Assembly: GCA_021160245.1 (NCBI GenBank)
Contig: JAGHCW010000166.1
Location: 1 to 12,985, forward strand
DNA from: a bacterium
GTDB taxonomy: Bacteria > B130-G9
Direction of reading: 5' to 3'
DNA: 12,985 nt
The notes under the pieces are model-generated. The model saw nothing but the letters and a program-made list of their open reading frames with translations. It was not told the DNA's origin and did not search any database. Positions 2,108-12,985 of the stretch are shown here, piece by piece. The translations under genes and the position numbers were made by a program. Within the stretch, counting starts at the first letter, position 1, and every line of letters starts with the position of its first letter.

Positions 2108-3595
<1,488 letters not shown>

Positions 3596-3603
<8 letters not shown>

Positions 3604-3982
3604 CTTCATCTCCTAGAATCTTGTCTATCACTTCCTTGACAAGTTCGGGGGTGAACGGCTTTCTGATGTATGCGCGAACGCCCTTGGCCTTGAGTTCCTC
3701 GACTCTTGTTTGGCTACCTTCTGTCGAGATCATGACCACAGGAACTGTCTTCATCAGCCCGCTCTCGCTCATCTTTTCGACCATCTCAATTCCGGTCATC
3801 TCAGGCATGTTGATATCGGCAAGAACGAGATCGACCCATTTGTCATCCAGAACTGCAAGACCTTCCTTCCCATTGCCCGCTTGGTATAACTCGCCCACAT
3901 CGACGCCCGCCAGACTGAGCGTCTTCTTGATGATCGCGCGCACGATGGCGGAATCATCAACGACAAGGATGTTATATGCCAT
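3596..3982 (-). CDS. Single-domain response regulator (CheY-like)
   Basis: At 128 residues this is a lone receiver domain with all the expected residues: D9/D10, phospho-acceptor D56 in LADINMPEMTG, S86, Y105 and K108. Nothing follows the receiver, so it acts through protein contact. An open frame extends upstream to 4063, but it reads through the HDOD gene in another frame. The ATG at 3982 (MAYNILVVDDS) has an AAGGAA site about 7 bases upstream and is the real start. Only 1 base separates it from the HDOD stop, and its end overlaps cheX. It is diverged from the CheY at 6504-6878 and lacks the T82 seen there. It could be a second CheA target acting as a phosphate sink or an output to the HDOD protein. 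That role is inferred from position only. Confidence 0.92.
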
Positions 3983-5625: not shown

Positions 5626-6489
5626 ATGAGGACTAAGACATTGCCTAATATCTTTCTACACAGTTTTCGCCCAGCTCTTGCCCGGATGACAGCTAACGTC
5701 CTTAAGAGTGAGGGCTTTGATGTGGTGGCTGCTGAGGATGGTGAAGCAGCAAACGGGGTGCCGGAGGGCGTGGATGCTATTCTAGTAGAGCTCAGAGCTG
5801 ACAACGGCTTCGCTGACAAGATATCTGGATTGCGAGCAGCATCAAGGTTCAAGAACATCCCAGTCCTTGGCGTTGTAGAGAGCTCAGCTAAAGACCTAGT
5901 TGCTGTGGCAGACACGGCGGGCGCCAGCGACCACTTCTTCCTTCCACTCGACCCTAAGAATCTCTCAGCTAAGATCGGCGATCTGCTCCGACCTGTCGGC
6001 AAGAATGGCAATGTCAATGTGGACATCATGAAGCCCTTCATTGCGTCAACAATCGACATCTTCTCAACGATGGCTCAGATCAAAGTGGAGCAGAAGGAGT
6101 TATTTCTCAAGAAGGACTACAAGATGTTTGGCGACCTCTCCGGCGTGATCGGTCTTTCTGGGGAGGCAGTCGGCTCTGCCGTGATAAGTTTTTCCGAGGA
6201 ATTGGCCCGCAAGTTCGTCGCCAAAATGCTTCAAGATGAGCCGGATAATCTCTCGATGGACGATGTGCGAGACGGCGTAGGGGAATTCATAAATATGATA
6301 GCAGGTGGCGCAAAGGCGGCTCTTACCGATACCCCATATCACTTCCGCATCTCGATACCGACCGTTGTTCAGGGCCACGGCCATGAAATTAGTCACAGAA
6401 GGGACACTCCTTGCATAGCGGTTGTGTTCAGCGCGAATGGAGATGAGTTCGCCGTTCAACTTTCATTAGCACCAAAGAAAACGAGTTAA
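5626..6489 (+). CDS. Degenerate receiver domain fused to a CheX-type phosphatase domain
   Basis: The 287-residue protein has two parts. Residues 1-120 follow a receiver fold (NIFLHSF, then GFDVVAAEDGEAA, then IPVLGVVES, then DHFFLPLDP), but the acidic pair is H12/S13, the phospho-acceptor position is E55 and the conserved Lys is replaced by Leu. It therefore should not be phosphorylated. Residues 132-285 form a CheX domain with the active helix D216-x3-E220-x2-N223 (DGVGEFIN), so phosphatase activity is expected. The ATG at 5626 has no clear ribosome site. A TTG at 5641 has GAGGA 8 bases before it and could be the true start, shortening the protein by 5 residues. As the first gene of the rightward unit, next to cheY, it probably dephosphorylates CheY-P, with the pseudo-receiver acting as a docking or regulatory module. 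That last point is inference. Confidence 0.82.
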   Translation: MRTKTLPNIFLHSFRPALARMTANVLKSEGFDVVAAEDGEAANGVPEGVDAILVELRADNGFADKISGLRAASRFKNIPVLGVVESSAKDLVAVADTAGASDHFFLPLDPKNLSAKIGDLLRPVGKNGNVNVDIMKPFIASTIDIFSTMAQIKVEQKELFLKKDYKMFGDLSGVIGLSGEAVGSAVISFSEELARKFVAKMLQDEPDNLSMDDVRDGVGEFINMIAGGAKAALTDTPYHFRISIPTVVQGHGHEISHRRDTPCIAVVFSANGDEFAVQLSLAPKKTS

Positions 6490-6503: not shown

Positions 6504-6878
6504 ATGAAGATACTTGTCGTGGATGATTCGAAGACCATGCGTCGCATCATCGTTCGGAGCCTCGCCGGCCTCGGCGAAGAGGATGTTATAGAGGCTGTTG
6601 ACGGAGCTGATGCGCTGACCAAGGCGAGTCAGGACGCATTCGAGCTAATCCTTACAGACTGGAACATGCCGAATCTCGATGGTCTTGGCCTCGTTGTGAA
6701 GCTGCGCAGTGAAGACAAACACAAGAAAACCCCAATCATAATGATAACGACCGAGGCGGAAAAAGGCAGCGTCGTTGAGGCCGTAAAGGCGGGTGTAAAC
6801 AACTACATCGTGAAGCCCTTCACCCCAGCAACGCTCAAGGCCAAGATACAAGATACTGTGGGCGGCTTCGGGAATTAG
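6504..6878 (+). CDS. cheY: Chemotaxis response regulator CheY
   Basis: This 124-residue lone receiver has D7/D8, phospho-acceptor D52 in LTDWNMPNLDG, T82, Y101 and K104, the complete set used by flagellar-motor CheY. The WNMPN block is typical of true CheY. An AAGGA site precedes the ATG by about 8 bases. It lies 14 bases after the receiver-CheX gene and 13 bases before the DUF342 gene. CheA-P should phosphorylate it, after which it would bind the flagellar switch. Of the two single-domain regulators in the window, this one is the better candidate for motor CheY because of its closer match and its place beside cheA. Confidence 0.95.
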   Translation: MKILVVDDSKTMRRIIVRSLAGLGEEDVIEAVDGADALTKASQDAFELILTDWNMPNLDGLGLVVKLRSEDKHKKTPIIMITTEAEKGSVVEAVKAGVNNYIVKPFTPATLKAKIQDTVGGFGN

Positions 6879-8379: not shown

Positions 8380-11304
8380 ATGATTGAGCAAATCGCAGAG
8401 ACCTTGATCCTGATGGACTCGGCCAACCTCCAGGACCTAGCGAGTCTGCATACAAGCTTCCAGCAGTTGGCCAAGCAATTCGAAGGCGACGACCAACAGG
8501 TCACCATTCAGGCTGCATCGAAATGCGCAGACCTGGTTGAGAAAATAATACTCGGAGACGTAGAAAGCACCGAGACCGCTCTTGAAACCATATCGAATGC
8601 GGTCTCCGCCTTCCAGTCGGTAATCTCCGGCAACAGAGCGCCGGAAGAGGCTGGTTTTCCCCAAGAGTTTGACCTCTTTGATTCCGGTGAGAGTGGCGAC
8701 ATCGACCAGACTGTATATTGTTTACCAGCACACGTTGACGAGGATATATTCTCCGAGTTCTTGGCAAAGCAACCCTCCTTGTTAGAGGAGTTGGAGCAGC
8801 ACATCCTTGCGCTTGAAAATGCCGAGAATGATAAGTCTGTCGCGGCCATCAAGCGCATTTTGCATACGACGAAAGGCGAGTCGGGCCTTCTGGGTATGGA
8901 TGATGTTCAGTCGTTTTGTCACGAAGTAGAGGGCTGCTTCGAGAACGACTCGGCGCCATCTGTTGACGCCCTCCTATCCGCAAAGGACTGGCTGGGACGC
9001 GCCTTTGAAGGACTTCGCGTGGGCGAGTGCATTCCTGGCGTACAGGACGTCGTGGAGGCGCTGCGCTCCTCGGTGCTTGAGGACGGAGCCAAAATGGATG
9101 CCCCGGCGGAGCAGCCGGAGCAAGACGCATCGGCTACAAAGGAGCCTGAAGACGAGACGACGCCTGAGACCCCCGAGCCGCAAACGACCGACGAGACTTC
9201 GGAGGAGACTCCGATGTCACTCGACCTTGAATTGGTTGGCGAGTTCTTGATTGAGGCGAGGGAACACCTTGAGCAGGCAGATTTAAACCTACTTGAGCTG
9301 GAAACAGACCCCCAAAACATCGAAGCGATAAACGCCGTATTCAGGGCATTCCATACAATAAAAGGAACGGCAGCGTTTCTAAACCTCGGTGATATCGGAA
9401 AACTCGCTCACGAGGCAGAGAGTCTTCTGAATAAAGCCCGAAGCGGCGAGATACTCTTAAAGGGCCTCGCTGTGGACATCAGTTTAGAGGCTGTTGACGT
9501 CCTCAGGAGCCTGCTGGACGACGTCGAGACGGCGGTCAACAATGGCGATTCAGTTCCACACTCTGGGTCATTGAACGCTCTTATCTCGCGCATAAAGGCC
9601 GCCGCGGAGGGCGATCAAGGCGGTAATGAGCCGGCGCCCGCGACTCCTACTGAGGGAACTGGCGCCAAGCTGGGGGAGATACTGGTAAATAGTGGCGCCT
9701 TGACGCCCGGTGACATGGCCAATGCCCTGTTCGAGCAAAAGACAACCAAGAAGAGCAAGAAGATCGGCGAGTTGCTTGTGAAGACCGAGCGTGTCAAAGC
9801 CAAGGATGTCGTTGGGGCATTAAGAGTCCAGAAGGGCAGCGGCTCCCCAAGTGTGGAAAGACCTCATGATCAAATAGGTAGAGTACTAGTAGAGCAGGGC
9901 GCAGTTTCGACAGATGATGTGGTTGAGGCGCTCGTGGAGCAAAGGGCAGGCAAGGCCGGGCCCAAACTAGGTGAGATACTAGTGAAAAAGGGCCGCGCCT
10001 CAGGCGAGGACGTTGCTCAAGCACTTCAAGCACAGAAGTCCACCGTGGCCCGGCCGGTTACTACAGTCAAAGACGTAATTAAGGTTGACGCCATGCGCCT
10101 CGACCGGTTGGTCGATACGATCGGCGAGCTGGTTATCGCCGAGGCGATGGTTAGCCAATCGGAGGAAGTGCGCAAGGGCGCGTCAGCGGAGATTACGCGG
10201 AAGTTTGGTCAGCTGAACAAGATAACGCGGGAGTTGCAGGAGATGGGCACATCCCTGCGGATGGTTCCGGTCAAGGCCACGTTCCAGAAGATGGCGAGGC
10301 TCGTTCGCGATCTAGCAAAGAAGGCCGGCAAGCAGGTTGAGTTGGTTCTGTCCGGTGAGGACACTGAACTGGACAAGACGGTAGTTGACAAGATCGGCGA
10401 TCCGCTGGTTCACATGGTGCGCAACGCCGTCGATCATGGCATTGAGCCCAACGCACAAGAGCGTCTTCAGAAGGGCAAACCCAGCAAAGGGCGGGTAGAG
10501 CTCAGAGCCTTCCACAAGGGCGGCAATATCCATATTGAGATTGCGGACGACGGGCGTGGCCTCGACCGCGATGCAATCCTCGCAAAGGCCAAAGAGCGCG
10601 GCCTCGTTCGGGAGGGTGAAACGCCAAGCGATCGCGAGATATTCAACCTAATTTTCGAGCCGGGTTTCTCGACGGCCAAGAAGGTCACGGACATCTCCGG
10701 CCGTGGCGTGGGCATGGACGTAGTGAAGCGGAACATTGCGGACTTGCGTGGGAACGTCGAGATCAGCTCGGAGCTTGGCAAGGGGAGCGTATTCAGCATT
10801 CGCTTGCCTCTAACGTTGGCCATTATTGATGGGATGCTACTGCAGGTCGGGCAGGAACGCTACATAATCCCCACGCTCTCCATCATTGGAGCTGTTAAAC
10901 CCGATCCCGAAGCACTGCAGTCTGTGCTGGACCGGGGTCAGATGCTGTCCTTTCAGAACCGCCTCATTCCAGTCTTTTTGCTGGGGCATCTCCTGGGCAT
11001 AGAACATGCAAAGCAAGACGCTAGCTGCGGAATAGTGATTGTGGTGGAAGAGAACGGCAAGAATATGGGGCTAGTTGTTGATAAGCTCCTCGGCCTGCGA
11101 CAAACCGTAATAAAGAGCATGAGCGACTCTCTGGGCAAGCAGGTTGGCGTGGCGGGGGCGACAATTCTCTCCGACGGACACGTCGGGCTAATCCTTGATA
11201 TGGGTGGAATTATGAAACTCATAAACAAAGATGAGGCAGATCATCTCTCTCATCTGTCAGCTGTGTCGCAATTAAAACAACAGGTCAATAGGAGGAGGAC
11301 ATGA
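8380..11304 (+). CDS. cheA: Chemotaxis histidine kinase CheA with two HPt domains and MshEN-like repeats
   Basis: At 974 residues this CheA is much longer than the usual 650-750. Order of parts: an alpha-helical N-terminal region of unknown type (1-110); HPt domain 1 with H162 (ILHTTKG); an acidic Pro/Thr/Glu-rich linker (240-282); HPt domain 2 with H325 (AFHTIKG); four 24-residue MshEN-like motifs (430-453, 461-484, 498-521, 529-552) where the CheY-binding P2 domain usually sits; the P3 dimerisation helices from about 564 (IKVDAMRLDRLVDTIGELV); the ATPase domain with N682 in HMVRNAVDHG, the D723-D-G-R-G box and GRGVGMDVV; and a C-terminal CheW-like P5 domain from about 810. All kinase boxes look intact. 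The ATG at 8380 has only a weak ribosome site. The stop overlaps the start of a small frame by 4 bases. It autophosphorylates under receptor and CheW control and passes phosphate to CheY and CheB. Confidence 0.95.
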   Translation: MIEQIAETLILMDSANLQDLASLHTSFQQLAKQFEGDDQQVTIQAASKCADLVEKIILGDVESTETALETISNAVSAFQSVISGNRAPEEAGFPQEFDLFDSGESGDIDQTVYCLPAHVDEDIFSEFLAKQPSLLEELEQHILALENAENDKSVAAIKRILHTTKGESGLLGMDDVQSFCHEVEGCFENDSAPSVDALLSAKDWLGRAFEGLRVGECIPGVQDVVEALRSSVLEDGAKMDAPAEQPEQDASATKEPEDETTPETPEPQTTDETSEETPMSLDLELVGEFLIEAREHLEQADLNLLELETDPQNIEAINAVFRAFHTIKGTAAFLNLGDIGKLAHEAESLLNKARSGEILLKGLAVDISLEAVDVLRSLLDDVETAVNNGDSVPHSGSLNALISRIKAAAEGDQGGNEPAPATPTEGTGAKLGEILVNSGALTPGDMANALFEQKTTKKSKKIGELLVKTERVKAKDVVGALRVQKGSGSPSVERPHDQIGRVLVEQGAVSTDDVVEALVEQRAGKAGPKLGEILVKKGRASGEDVAQALQAQKSTVARPVTTVKDVIKVDAMRLDRLVDTIGELVIAEAMVSQSEEVRKGASAEITRKFGQLNKITRELQEMGTSLRMVPVKATFQKMARLVRDLAKKAGKQVELVLSGEDTELDKTVVDKIGDPLVHMVRNAVDHGIEPNAQERLQKGKPSKGRVELRAFHKGGNIHIEIADDGRGLDRDAILAKAKERGLVREGETPSDREIFNLIFEPGFSTAKKVTDISGRGVGMDVVKRNIADLRGNVEISSELGKGSVFSIRLPLTLAIIDGMLLQVGQERYIIPTLSIIGAVKPDPEALQSVLDRGQMLSFQNRLIPVFLLGHLLGIEHAKQDASCGIVIVVEENGKNMGLVVDKLLGLRQTVIKSMSDSLGKQVGVAGATILSDGHVGLILDMGGIMKLINKDEADHLSHLSAVSQLKQQVNRRRT
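9667..10035 (+). repeat. Four MshEN-like 24-residue motifs inside cheA
   Basis: Four coding repeats lie at 9667-9738, 9760-9831, 9871-9942 and 9964-10035. Each encodes exactly 24 residues of the pattern (K/Q)(L/I)G..LV followed by ..(D)(M/V)..AL..Q. They form two pairs, each with a 7-residue spacer; 13 residues separate the pairs. Copies 1 and 4 are also alike at DNA level. The first motif residue, Arg in known c-di-GMP binders, is K, K, Q and K here, so ligand binding is uncertain. Confidence 0.75.
11290..11298 (+). promoter_or_regulatory. Strong ribosome binding site inside the end of cheA
   Basis: AGGAGGAGG lies just before the ATG at 11301, with the first AGGAGG 5 bases from it. It is also the coding sequence for three arginines at the CheA C-terminus, so it could be coincidence. 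If used, it drives the 31-codon frame that begins in the cheA stop. Confidence 0.45.
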
Positions 11305-11396
11305 GATGTGAGTGTGTCAGACCAAAAGAACTACCGGGCAACGTGTCGTTTCAGGCAACTGTCAGGCGAATCGGGATGAGAGGAGGTGAAGTATGA
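11301..11396 (+). CDS. Possible small gene (31 codons) bridging cheA and cheW
   Basis: This frame starts at an ATG that overlaps the cheA stop (ATGA, 11301-11304) and ends in a TGA that overlaps the cheW start (ATGA, 11393-11396). It therefore spans the gap between the two genes exactly. A strong AGGAGG site stands 5 bases before the ATG. The product would be a basic 31-residue peptide with two cysteines (start MRCECVRPKE, end RGGEV). I recognise no family. It may be a real small protein or a short frame that couples cheW translation to cheA. A frame this short can also stay open by chance; the double ATGA overlap and the ribosome site are the reasons for listing it. Confidence 0.4.
   Translation: MRCECVRPKELPGNVSFQATVRRIGMRGGEV
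11381..11389 (+). promoter_or_regulatory. Near-perfect ribosome binding site of cheW
   Basis: AGGAGGTGA, complementary to the usual 3' end of 16S rRNA, lies with its GGAGG core 6 bases before the cheW ATG at 11393. It suggests high cheW expression and shows that the host has the common anti-Shine-Dalgarno sequence. Confidence 0.75.
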
Positions 11397-12004
11397 GCGA
11401 AGTGCAGACTATCGAAACAATGGGTCAACAAGTGGCAGGCTTGGAAGATAGAGCAGGGAAGTACTTGACGTTCAAGCTCGCCGAGGAGGAGTACGGACTG
11501 GAGATACTAAAGGTCCGGGAAATCATGGGCCTCATGCCTGTCACCAGGGTGCCTCAGACACCGGCTTTCGTCCGCGGCGTGATTAACCTGCGCGGTAAGG
11601 TCATTCCCGTGGTTGACCTTCGGATGAAGTTTGGAATGCAGAGCATTGAGGACACCGAGGAGACCTGCATCATCGTCGTTGACGTAACCAGAAAGGGCCA
11701 AGTCACGAATATGGGCATAGTGGTTGACAGAGTAGAGGAGGTCTTGGATATCAGCGGAAACGATATCGAGGACACGCCATCCCTTGGCGCCGGTGTTAAC
11801 ACTGATTTCATCCTCGGGATGGGCAAAGTAGGAGATAAGGTGAAGATGCTTCTGGACATCAACAGAGTGCTGTTGAGCGCCACTAGCGCCACCCAAGATC
11901 TCTTCACGGCCGAACGTAAGGTCAAAGAAGATGCTGCCGGCAGTTCGGCAGAGACTGAATCAAAAGACACAGACAACACTGCGGACAAAGAGGAGAACAA
12001 CTGA
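11393..12004 (+). CDS. cheW: Chemotaxis adaptor protein CheW
   Basis: The 203-residue protein carries one CheW (SH3-like) domain at about residues 20-160. It shows the conserved YGLEILKVREI strand, the VPQTPAFVRGVINLRG turn with R67 of the NLRG motif, VIPVVDLR, and GIVVDRVEEVL later. It bridges receptors and the P5 domain of CheA in signalling arrays. It is longer than the common 150-170 residues because of a polar, acidic, probably disordered tail (about 170-203, rich in Glu, Asp, Ser and Thr). It has the best ribosome site in the window and follows cheA by 88 bases. The receptor gene follows after only 2 bases, so cheA, cheW and the receptor are very likely cotranscribed. Confidence 0.96.
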   Translation: MSEVQTIETMGQQVAGLEDRAGKYLTFKLAEEEYGLEILKVREIMGLMPVTRVPQTPAFVRGVINLRGKVIPVVDLRMKFGMQSIEDTEETCIIVVDVTRKGQVTNMGIVVDRVEEVLDISGNDIEDTPSLGAGVNTDFILGMGKVGDKVKMLLDINRVLLSATSATQDLFTAERKVKEDAAGSSAETESKDTDNTADKEENN

Positions 12005-12006
12005 TC

Positions 12007-12985
12007 ATGGCAAATGTGACAGAACCACAAGCGCCGAAAGCAAAAGCCCCGGCGAAGTCCGCGCGCGCAAACGGCGCCGGAAAGGTAAAGGAGCTTGAGC
12101 AGAGGCTCGCCAGCATGGAGGCTGAGCAAGCCGATACGCTGAACGAACTTGGCCGAATCATCAAGGCCGTTAAGAACGGGCAGTTGAATGAAAGAGCGGA
12201 GATTGGGGACGCCACGGGTGTCCTCAAGGTTTTGCGTGAAGGCGTAAATGAGATGCTGGACGCCCTAATCGCTCCGATCAACATGACGGTAGAGTATGTT
12301 GACGCAATCTCGAAGGGCGAGATACCGGAGAGGATTACGGAGGACTACCAGGGCGATTTCAACGAGATCAAGAACAGCTTGAACGCTTGCATCGACGTGA
12401 TGAACGGTCTTTTGAAAGAGACAGACAAACTGGTTCAAGCGACAGCTGCAGGCAAGCTAGAGACTCGTGGAGACGCTGATAGTTTCGCCGGAGGCTGGGG
12501 CAAGCTGCTTGGCAGCGTGAACGATCTAGTCGAGGCGGTTGCCGCTCCGATTGACGACACTGCAAGAGTGATGAGAGCCGTGGCCCAGAAGGACCTTACG
12601 AGCCGGATCACAAAAGAATATCAGGGTCAGTTTGGCGATCTCAAGAATTATATCAATGCGGCCGTTGAGAACATGGATGAGGCGCTATCCCAGGTGAATG
12701 AGGCGTCCGATCAGGTTGCATCAGCTAGCGGCCAGATCAGCACCGGCAGCCAGGCCCTAGCGGAGGGCGCCAATGAGCAAGCCAGCGCGTTGGAGGAAGT
12801 GTCTAGCAGCCTTGAGCAGATGGCCGCAATGACCAAGCAGAACGCTGACAACGCTGGACAGGGGGAAAGCTTGGCTAATGGAGCGACAGATGGCGCCAAA
12901 AAAGGCGTCGAGGCGATGAACCGCATGTCCTCCGCTATGGACAAGATCAAGACCTCGTCCGGTCAGACGGCGAAGATCATCAAGA
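12007..12985 (+). CDS. Soluble methyl-accepting chemotaxis protein with tandem HAMP domains (3' end outside window)
   Basis: The frame is open from the ATG at 12007 to the window end (326 codons seen). There is no membrane segment, so the receptor is cytoplasmic. A Pro/Ala/Lys-rich basic tail (residues 8-28) is followed by a short coiled coil. Four HAMP-like units then follow (about 46-88, 89-132, 136-179 and 180-222). Units 2 and 4 are plainly duplicated with a 91-residue period (API..T....A...ITEDYQGDF against API..TARVMRAVAQ..ITKEYQGQF). The methyl-accepting coiled coil then begins; a site of the usual type lies in EQASALEEVSSS. The kinase-contact hairpin tip is beyond the window. GAGGAG lies about 11 bases before the ATG. 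No sensory domain is seen, so the HAMP array, an unseen C-terminal part or a partner must sense the signal. Confidence 0.9.
   Translation, partial: MANVTEPQAPKAKAPAKSARANGAGKVKELEQRLASMEAEQADTLNELGRIIKAVKNGQLNERAEIGDATGVLKVLREGVNEMLDALIAPINMTVEYVDAISKGEIPERITEDYQGDFNEIKNSLNACIDVMNGLLKETDKLVQATAAGKLETRGDADSFAGGWGKLLGSVNDLVEAVAAPIDDTARVMRAVAQKDLTSRITKEYQGQFGDLKNYINAAVENMDEALSQVNEASDQVASASGQISTGSQALAEGANEQASALEEVSSSLEQMAAMTKQNADNAGQGESLANGATDGAKKGVEAMNRMSSAMDKIKTSSGQTAKIIK

Follow-up and report, generated by a model that had tools for sequence, protein, structure and literature searches.

The chemotaxis kinase CheA encoded in the window (the whole 12,985-nt stretch of DNA analysed here) carries, at the place of the P2 domain, an insert that is homologous to MshEN_N, the c-di-GMP-binding half of the MshEN domain. 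Judged from sequence and structural models, the best reading of this arrangement, and a probable one, is that c-di-GMP acts directly on CheA via the MshEN_N modules that stand in the place of P2. As a hypothesis it is supported, the alternative of a docking function being less likely. The genes, domains and motifs concerned are located in the window as follows.

6504..6878, + strand: CheY, upstream of CheA in the same gene row (PF00072, 4.5e-27)
8380..11304, + strand: CheA, 974 aa (from the open reading frame, Pfam and the full-length AlphaFold model)
9667..9831, + strand: module 1, motifs 1 and 2 (NF053729, 39.2 bits, cut-off 38)
9667..9738, + strand: motif 1, KLGEILVNSGALTPGDMANALFEQ, aa 430-453; leading Lys, every contact class present
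9760..9831, + strand: motif 2, KIGELLVKTERVKAKDVVGALRVQ, aa 461-484; leading Lys, Glu for the central Gly
9871..10035, + strand: module 2, motifs 3 and 4 (NF053729, 46.3 bits, cut-off 38)
9871..9942, + strand: motif 3, QIGRVLVEQGAVSTDDVVEALVEQ, aa 498-521; leading Gln
9964..10035, + strand: motif 4, KLGEILVKKGRASGEDVAQALQAQ, aa 529-552; leading Lys, every contact class present
10072..10245, + strand: P3 dimerisation domain (H-kinase_dim), aa 565-622, right behind module 2 (PF02895, 6e-13)
11393..12004, + strand: CheW, downstream of CheA (PF01584, 4e-37)

The HPt, H-kinase_dim, HATPase_c and CheW domains of a CheA were all found in order, each above its Pfam cut-off. From the N-terminus, the protein consists of a helical bundle, HPt1 (HTTKG), HPt2 (HTIKG), the MshEN_N-type insert, P3, P4 and P5. 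HPt was matched by Pfam in two stretches, the best of them at aa 284-384, while HATPase_c covers aa 674-812 and the CheW domain aa 818-946. The full-length AlphaFold model (mean pLDDT 83, pTM 0.45, the domain arrangement not being fixed by the model) matched CheA P1 (HPt), P3-P4 and P5 structures in the PDB. No Pfam P2 (CheY-binding) family was detected between HPt and P3 at E values up to 10, and the P2 place is taken up by the four motifs. Ahead of HPt1, residues 1-85 (8380-8634) are helical with pLDDT of about 90 or more, partly conserved among relatives and without a Pfam match. The cheA gene is flanked by cheX-cheY-fapA on one side and by cheW and a receptor-like ORF, assigned by eye, on the other; a divergent row consists of cheD-HDOD-cheY-cheX-cheB. 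Two CheX-type genes are present in the divergent chemotaxis gene rows (3130-3609 and 5626-6489), the longer of which has an additional N-terminal part without a Pfam match.

The sequence-only reading had described four 24-residue motifs at 9667-10035, set in two pairs with 7-residue spacers between the second HPt domain and the dimerisation helices. The motifs were found at exactly these coordinates, the linkers between motifs 1-2, 2-3 and 3-4 measured 7, 13 and 7 residues, and Pfam placed the insert between HPt2 (284-384) and H-kinase_dim (565-622). The pattern (R/K/L)LGxx(L/V/I)(L/V/I)xxG...LxxxLxxQ is matched by four motifs in two pairs, with deviations at Q1 in motif 3, E10 in motif 2 and position 17, where Val or Met stands instead of Leu. 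Two further details of the earlier description were borne out, the leading residues K/K/Q/K and the lack of the central Gly in motif 2: the turn Gly at position 10 is present in motifs 1, 3 and 4 and replaced by Glu in motif 2, and is thus not common to every motif. Gly3 and Gln24 are kept in 4/4 motifs, and the sole contact class that departs in this CheA is position 1, with Gln in motif 3.

The relationship to MshEN was established with NF053729, the MshE-related NCBIfam profile 'c-di-GMP_motif', which has a curated cut-off of 38 bits. It matched with E values of 5.9e-20 for the full protein and about 3e-23 (81 bits) for the insert, both motif pairs individually exceeded the cut-off (39.2 and 46.3 vs. 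38 bits), and all 21 four-motif CheAs (21/21) were recognized. Sequence searches of the PDB with CheA returned Thermus thermophilus PilF (E 1.8e-10) and the type IV pilus protein PilB (3e-4), the latter having a 7-residue linker too. A further profile was derived solely from two-motif CheAs, all from other organisms, the window being excluded. With it the insert scored 120 bits, whereas no shuffle out of 5,000 exceeded 14.8, which rules out a chance or compositional repeat; motif-free CheAs reached at most 2.7 bits with the same profile. On the insert, as in 19/21 relatives, DUF4388 (PF14332) scored just below its cut-off; this match is far weaker than that of NF053729 and was set aside as a partial resemblance. 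The proposed similarity to MshEN is thus confirmed by the NF053729 profile and the PilF and PilB sequence matches; the predicted fold points the same way, though via motifs 2 and 3 of a model with pTM 0.50.

The search of the insert against PF05157, which had been suggested as one way to check this similarity, would have misled, as PF05157 (gathering score 23.1 bits) gave no match to CheA at E values up to 10 and NF053729 matches instead. Elsewhere in the same genome, PF05157 matches lie just downstream of 53-residue NF053729 matches (on contig C4, for example, NF053729 at 12664-12816 and PF05157 at 12820-13077), and we therefore infer that PF05157 covers mainly the C-terminal subdomain. It apparently misses CheA because the profile covers MshEN_C, which is absent from CheA. 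Pfam-based annotation thus seems to overlook stand-alone MshEN_N modules, and receptor counts based on PF05157 may miss them. A 378-aa ORF of the same genome (G000:C89) contains a tandem of two units, each made up of an NF053729 and a PF05157 match; as it is too short for an additional ATPase domain, it is a possible stand-alone c-di-GMP receptor.

The AlphaFold model of the insert (mean pLDDT 77, pTM 0.50) has eight helices where they were expected. Structurally it comes closest to c-di-GMP-bound MshE and to PilF GSPII-B, its top 12 structural rows contain MshE, PilF, PilB or XpsE domains only, and unrelated proteins appear from Z 4.0. Superposition on the MshE-c-di-GMP complex (5HTL) gave Z 10.1 and 1.1 Å over 57 residues, and the stretch aligned corresponds to model residues 38-102, that is, to motifs 2 and 3 (at pTM 0.50). 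This raises the question of how the motifs pair. Motifs 2 and 3 could form one MshEN-type site and motifs 1 and 4 pair mutually or across the CheA dimer, making the insert a single composite or dimer-bridging switch; besides the superposition, the 7-residue length of all linkers in most four-motif CheAs is in favor of such an arrangement. Yet the insert model reaches a pTM of just 0.50, both models give the stretch linking motifs 2 and 3 a pLDDT under 50, and in two-motif relatives a single adjacent pair stands alone. Moreover, the two-motif profile scored 69.0 bits on window motifs 1+2 and 63.5 on 3+4, well above 45.3 on 2+3. We thus regard the composite switch as improbable, and pairing as 1+2 and 3+4 is more likely than 2+3. 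Compared with the pair found in two-motif CheAs, motifs 1 and 3 of the window are most like its first member and motifs 2 and 4 like its second, a preference that motif 2 does not show in other four-motif CheAs. The PDB search with the full-length model was filled with kinase matches and has no bearing on the pairing.

To judge whether the modules could bind the ligand, we compared the positions known to contact it. According to the MshE report, c-di-GMP is held by stacking at position 1, hydrophobic clusters of Leu2, Leu17 and Leu21, Gln24, and the backbone of Gly3 and the next residue, while the central Gly forms a turn and makes no ligand contact; isolated MshEN_N binds with a KD of 0.35 µM (PMC5013675). 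Among 132 motifs from 45 CheAs, Gly3 was found in 132/132, Gln24 in 129/132 and K, R or L at position 1 in 108/132, counts that are not independent since the CheAs are mutually related. Mean information in this set was 3.36 bits at ligand contacts vs. 1.86 at other positions, although the motifs were picked by a scoring matrix (threshold 14 bits), which may favor contact residues somewhat; the weakest motif used among four-motif proteins scored 26.7 bits. The contact residues are conserved across CheAs of many phyla, and some of them have decayed in the ATPase-type MshEN domains that the same genome encodes. PilF GSPII-A, a non-binder, is off consensus at positions 1, 3 and 24 and keeps its fold (PMC12002112). 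Since the fold survives changes at these positions and binding is lost, conservation there favors ligand binding. Leu-to-Ile reversion at two hydrophobic contact positions of PilF caused only about a 2.4-fold loss (PMC12002112).

Two features of the window motifs had been held against c-di-GMP binding. The leading Lys is no obstacle: PilF GSPII-B has Lys/Leu at position 1 and binds c-di-GMP with a KD of 6 nM, its position-1 Lys raises affinity, and K167R weakens binding (PMC11731258), so that Lys is allowed and even favorable there. The missing central Gly of motif 2 can be answered as well. Replacement of this Gly by Leu or Ile weakens c-di-GMP binding; yet, as position 10 is a turn and not a contact, the Glu counts against the affinity of module 1 and not against its membership in the profile.

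A survey of CheA homologues for the insert, also proposed in the sequence-only reading, comprised 80 loci from a contig scan and the window (81 in total) and showed that it recurs in several phyla. Four motifs were found in 21 CheAs, two in 29, three in 4, one in 2 and none in 25. By record title, the four-motif proteins belong to Coatesbacteria, Hydrogenedentota, Planctomycetota, Omnitrophota and one Nitrospiraceae MAG, and the two-motif proteins to Fibrobacterota, Poribacteria, Sumerlaeota, Armatimonadota, Spirochaetota, Planctomycetota and others. One two-motif CheA is encoded in a complete genome, that titled Planctomycetes bacterium syqfu (L086). Module 2 corresponds to the unit retained beside P3 in the two-motif CheAs. 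In a genome of the same family (G002), CheA also carries four motifs, each of them with a leading Lys and the central Gly. The CheA of a close relative (L008) has an Ala/Pro linker in place of the insert, so the kinase as such can do without the module. On a kinase-core tree, built quickly and weakly supported at many forks, motif number changed many times, indicating that modules were gained, lost or doubled. A profile match spanning module 2 and P3 was obtained in 32/290 widely sampled genomes (counted from the table), pointing to a widespread architecture. In the second CheA of the genome (G000:C130, 624 aa), the motif pair RIGQILFSGGKVSKEGLEESLSEK-P-RLGDVLQEKGLVTKGDVKHALQLQ likewise lies between HPt and P3; its linker of one residue probably leaves too little room for the geometry of MshE. 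The CheAs of L094, L095, L117 and L124, mostly from Desulfobacterales MAGs, have three motifs with linkers of 0 and 3 residues, unlike the 7-residue class.

The genome has six GGDEF matches, four of them with intact GG(D/E)EF, and eight HD_5 matches, counted by profile alone; FliG is present, and an EAL domain search of the genome gave no match. Absence of c-di-GMP metabolism is ruled out by these GGDEF and HD_5 proteins. Under the proposed mechanism, the insert would form two tandem MshEN_N-type four-helix modules, each taking up to one c-di-GMP molecule, and CheA would be a direct c-di-GMP effector. The modules would take the usual place of P2, on the tether that links the phosphorylated HPt to the dimerisation helices. 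Binding of c-di-GMP might compact or reorient this tether, which in turn could alter the access of HPt to the P4 kinase or to CheY, and chemotactic output would be tuned to the c-di-GMP level. If true, the motile-sessile signal would be read at the kinase itself, ahead of all outputs. A wider proposal, which we put forward tentatively and hold at a little under even chances, is that in a CheA lineage spread over several phyla P2 was replaced by one or two c-di-GMP-binding MshEN_N modules through which c-di-GMP gates array phosphotransfer directly, the response being graded or cooperative where there are two sites. With conserved contacts and a family of zero-, two- and four-motif forms on otherwise similar kinases, the idea is directly testable.

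The modules might instead have kept the MshEN_N fold only to dock CheY or CheX as a stand-in for P2, with no response to c-di-GMP. They do sit at the P2 position in a protein where no P2 family was found, motifs 2 and 3 show some relaxation at the turn Gly and position 1, and MshEN-type domains can dock proteins, as seen for the N-terminal domain of Xanthomonas citri PilB with PilZ (7lko, a weaker structural match). However, P2 is absent from many CheAs without need of a substitute, and docking would not be expected to hold the ligand contacts Gly3 (132/132) and Gln24 (129/132), which non-binders with a retained fold have lost. Docking as the sole function thus appears unlikely. Within the preferred reading of a direct c-di-GMP input, it is conceivable, if rather doubtful, that only module 2, beside P3, is a working c-di-GMP sensor and module 1 a duplicated, partly decayed spacer. 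The single pair of two-motif CheAs adjoins P3, motif 4 is similar to the second member of that pair in 21/21 proteins, and the second motif of module 1 lacks the turn Gly in 18/21 four-motif proteins; on the other hand, module 1 keeps Gly3 in 42/42 and Gln24 in 41/42 motifs, and the odd position-1 residue of the window is in module 2, not in module 1.

Fusions of MshEN to CheA were noted in 2016 by Wang et al. in one main-text sentence (PMC5013675). They concern the same domain joined to CheA, and the main text gives no CheA binding data, module number, position or relation to P2. No study that puts c-di-GMP binding by a CheA to the test came up in the open-licence literature. The combination is thus already known, with its function apparently untested in that literature; the double module at the P2 place, the family-wide conservation of ligand contacts and the explanation of the PF05157 miss are added here.

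The window CheA shares with the MshEN_N/GSPII domains of Vibrio cholerae MshE (5HTL) and T. thermophilus PilF GSPII-B (8PDK) two 24-residue motifs per module, the contacts at positions 2, 3, 17, 21 and 24 and, as predicted, the helix layout, with a model backbone 1.1-1.7 Å from the c-di-GMP-bound MshE and PilF crystals (insert model pTM 0.50); Lys at position 1 is common to PilF GSPII-B. It differs from MshE and PilF in the lack of an MshEN_C subdomain, a linker of 7 residues vs. 5 in MshE, one turn Gly replaced by Glu, one Gln at position 1, two tandem modules, and a chemotaxis kinase as host rather than an ATPase or glycosyltransferase. Known c-di-GMP inputs to chemotaxis, namely the PilZ chemoreceptor Cbp1 (PMC6454048), MapZ-CheR1 (PMC6370697) and CheY-like regulators (PMC5677366), feed c-di-GMP into the pathway, as proposed for the window CheA, but through other domains and at the receptor, the methyltransferase or the motor, not at CheA. 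With the classical CheA of Escherichia coli and Thermotoga maritima, the window protein has HPt, P3, P4 and P5 in common; it departs from them in having two HPt domains and, where no P2 was found, MshEN_N modules instead.
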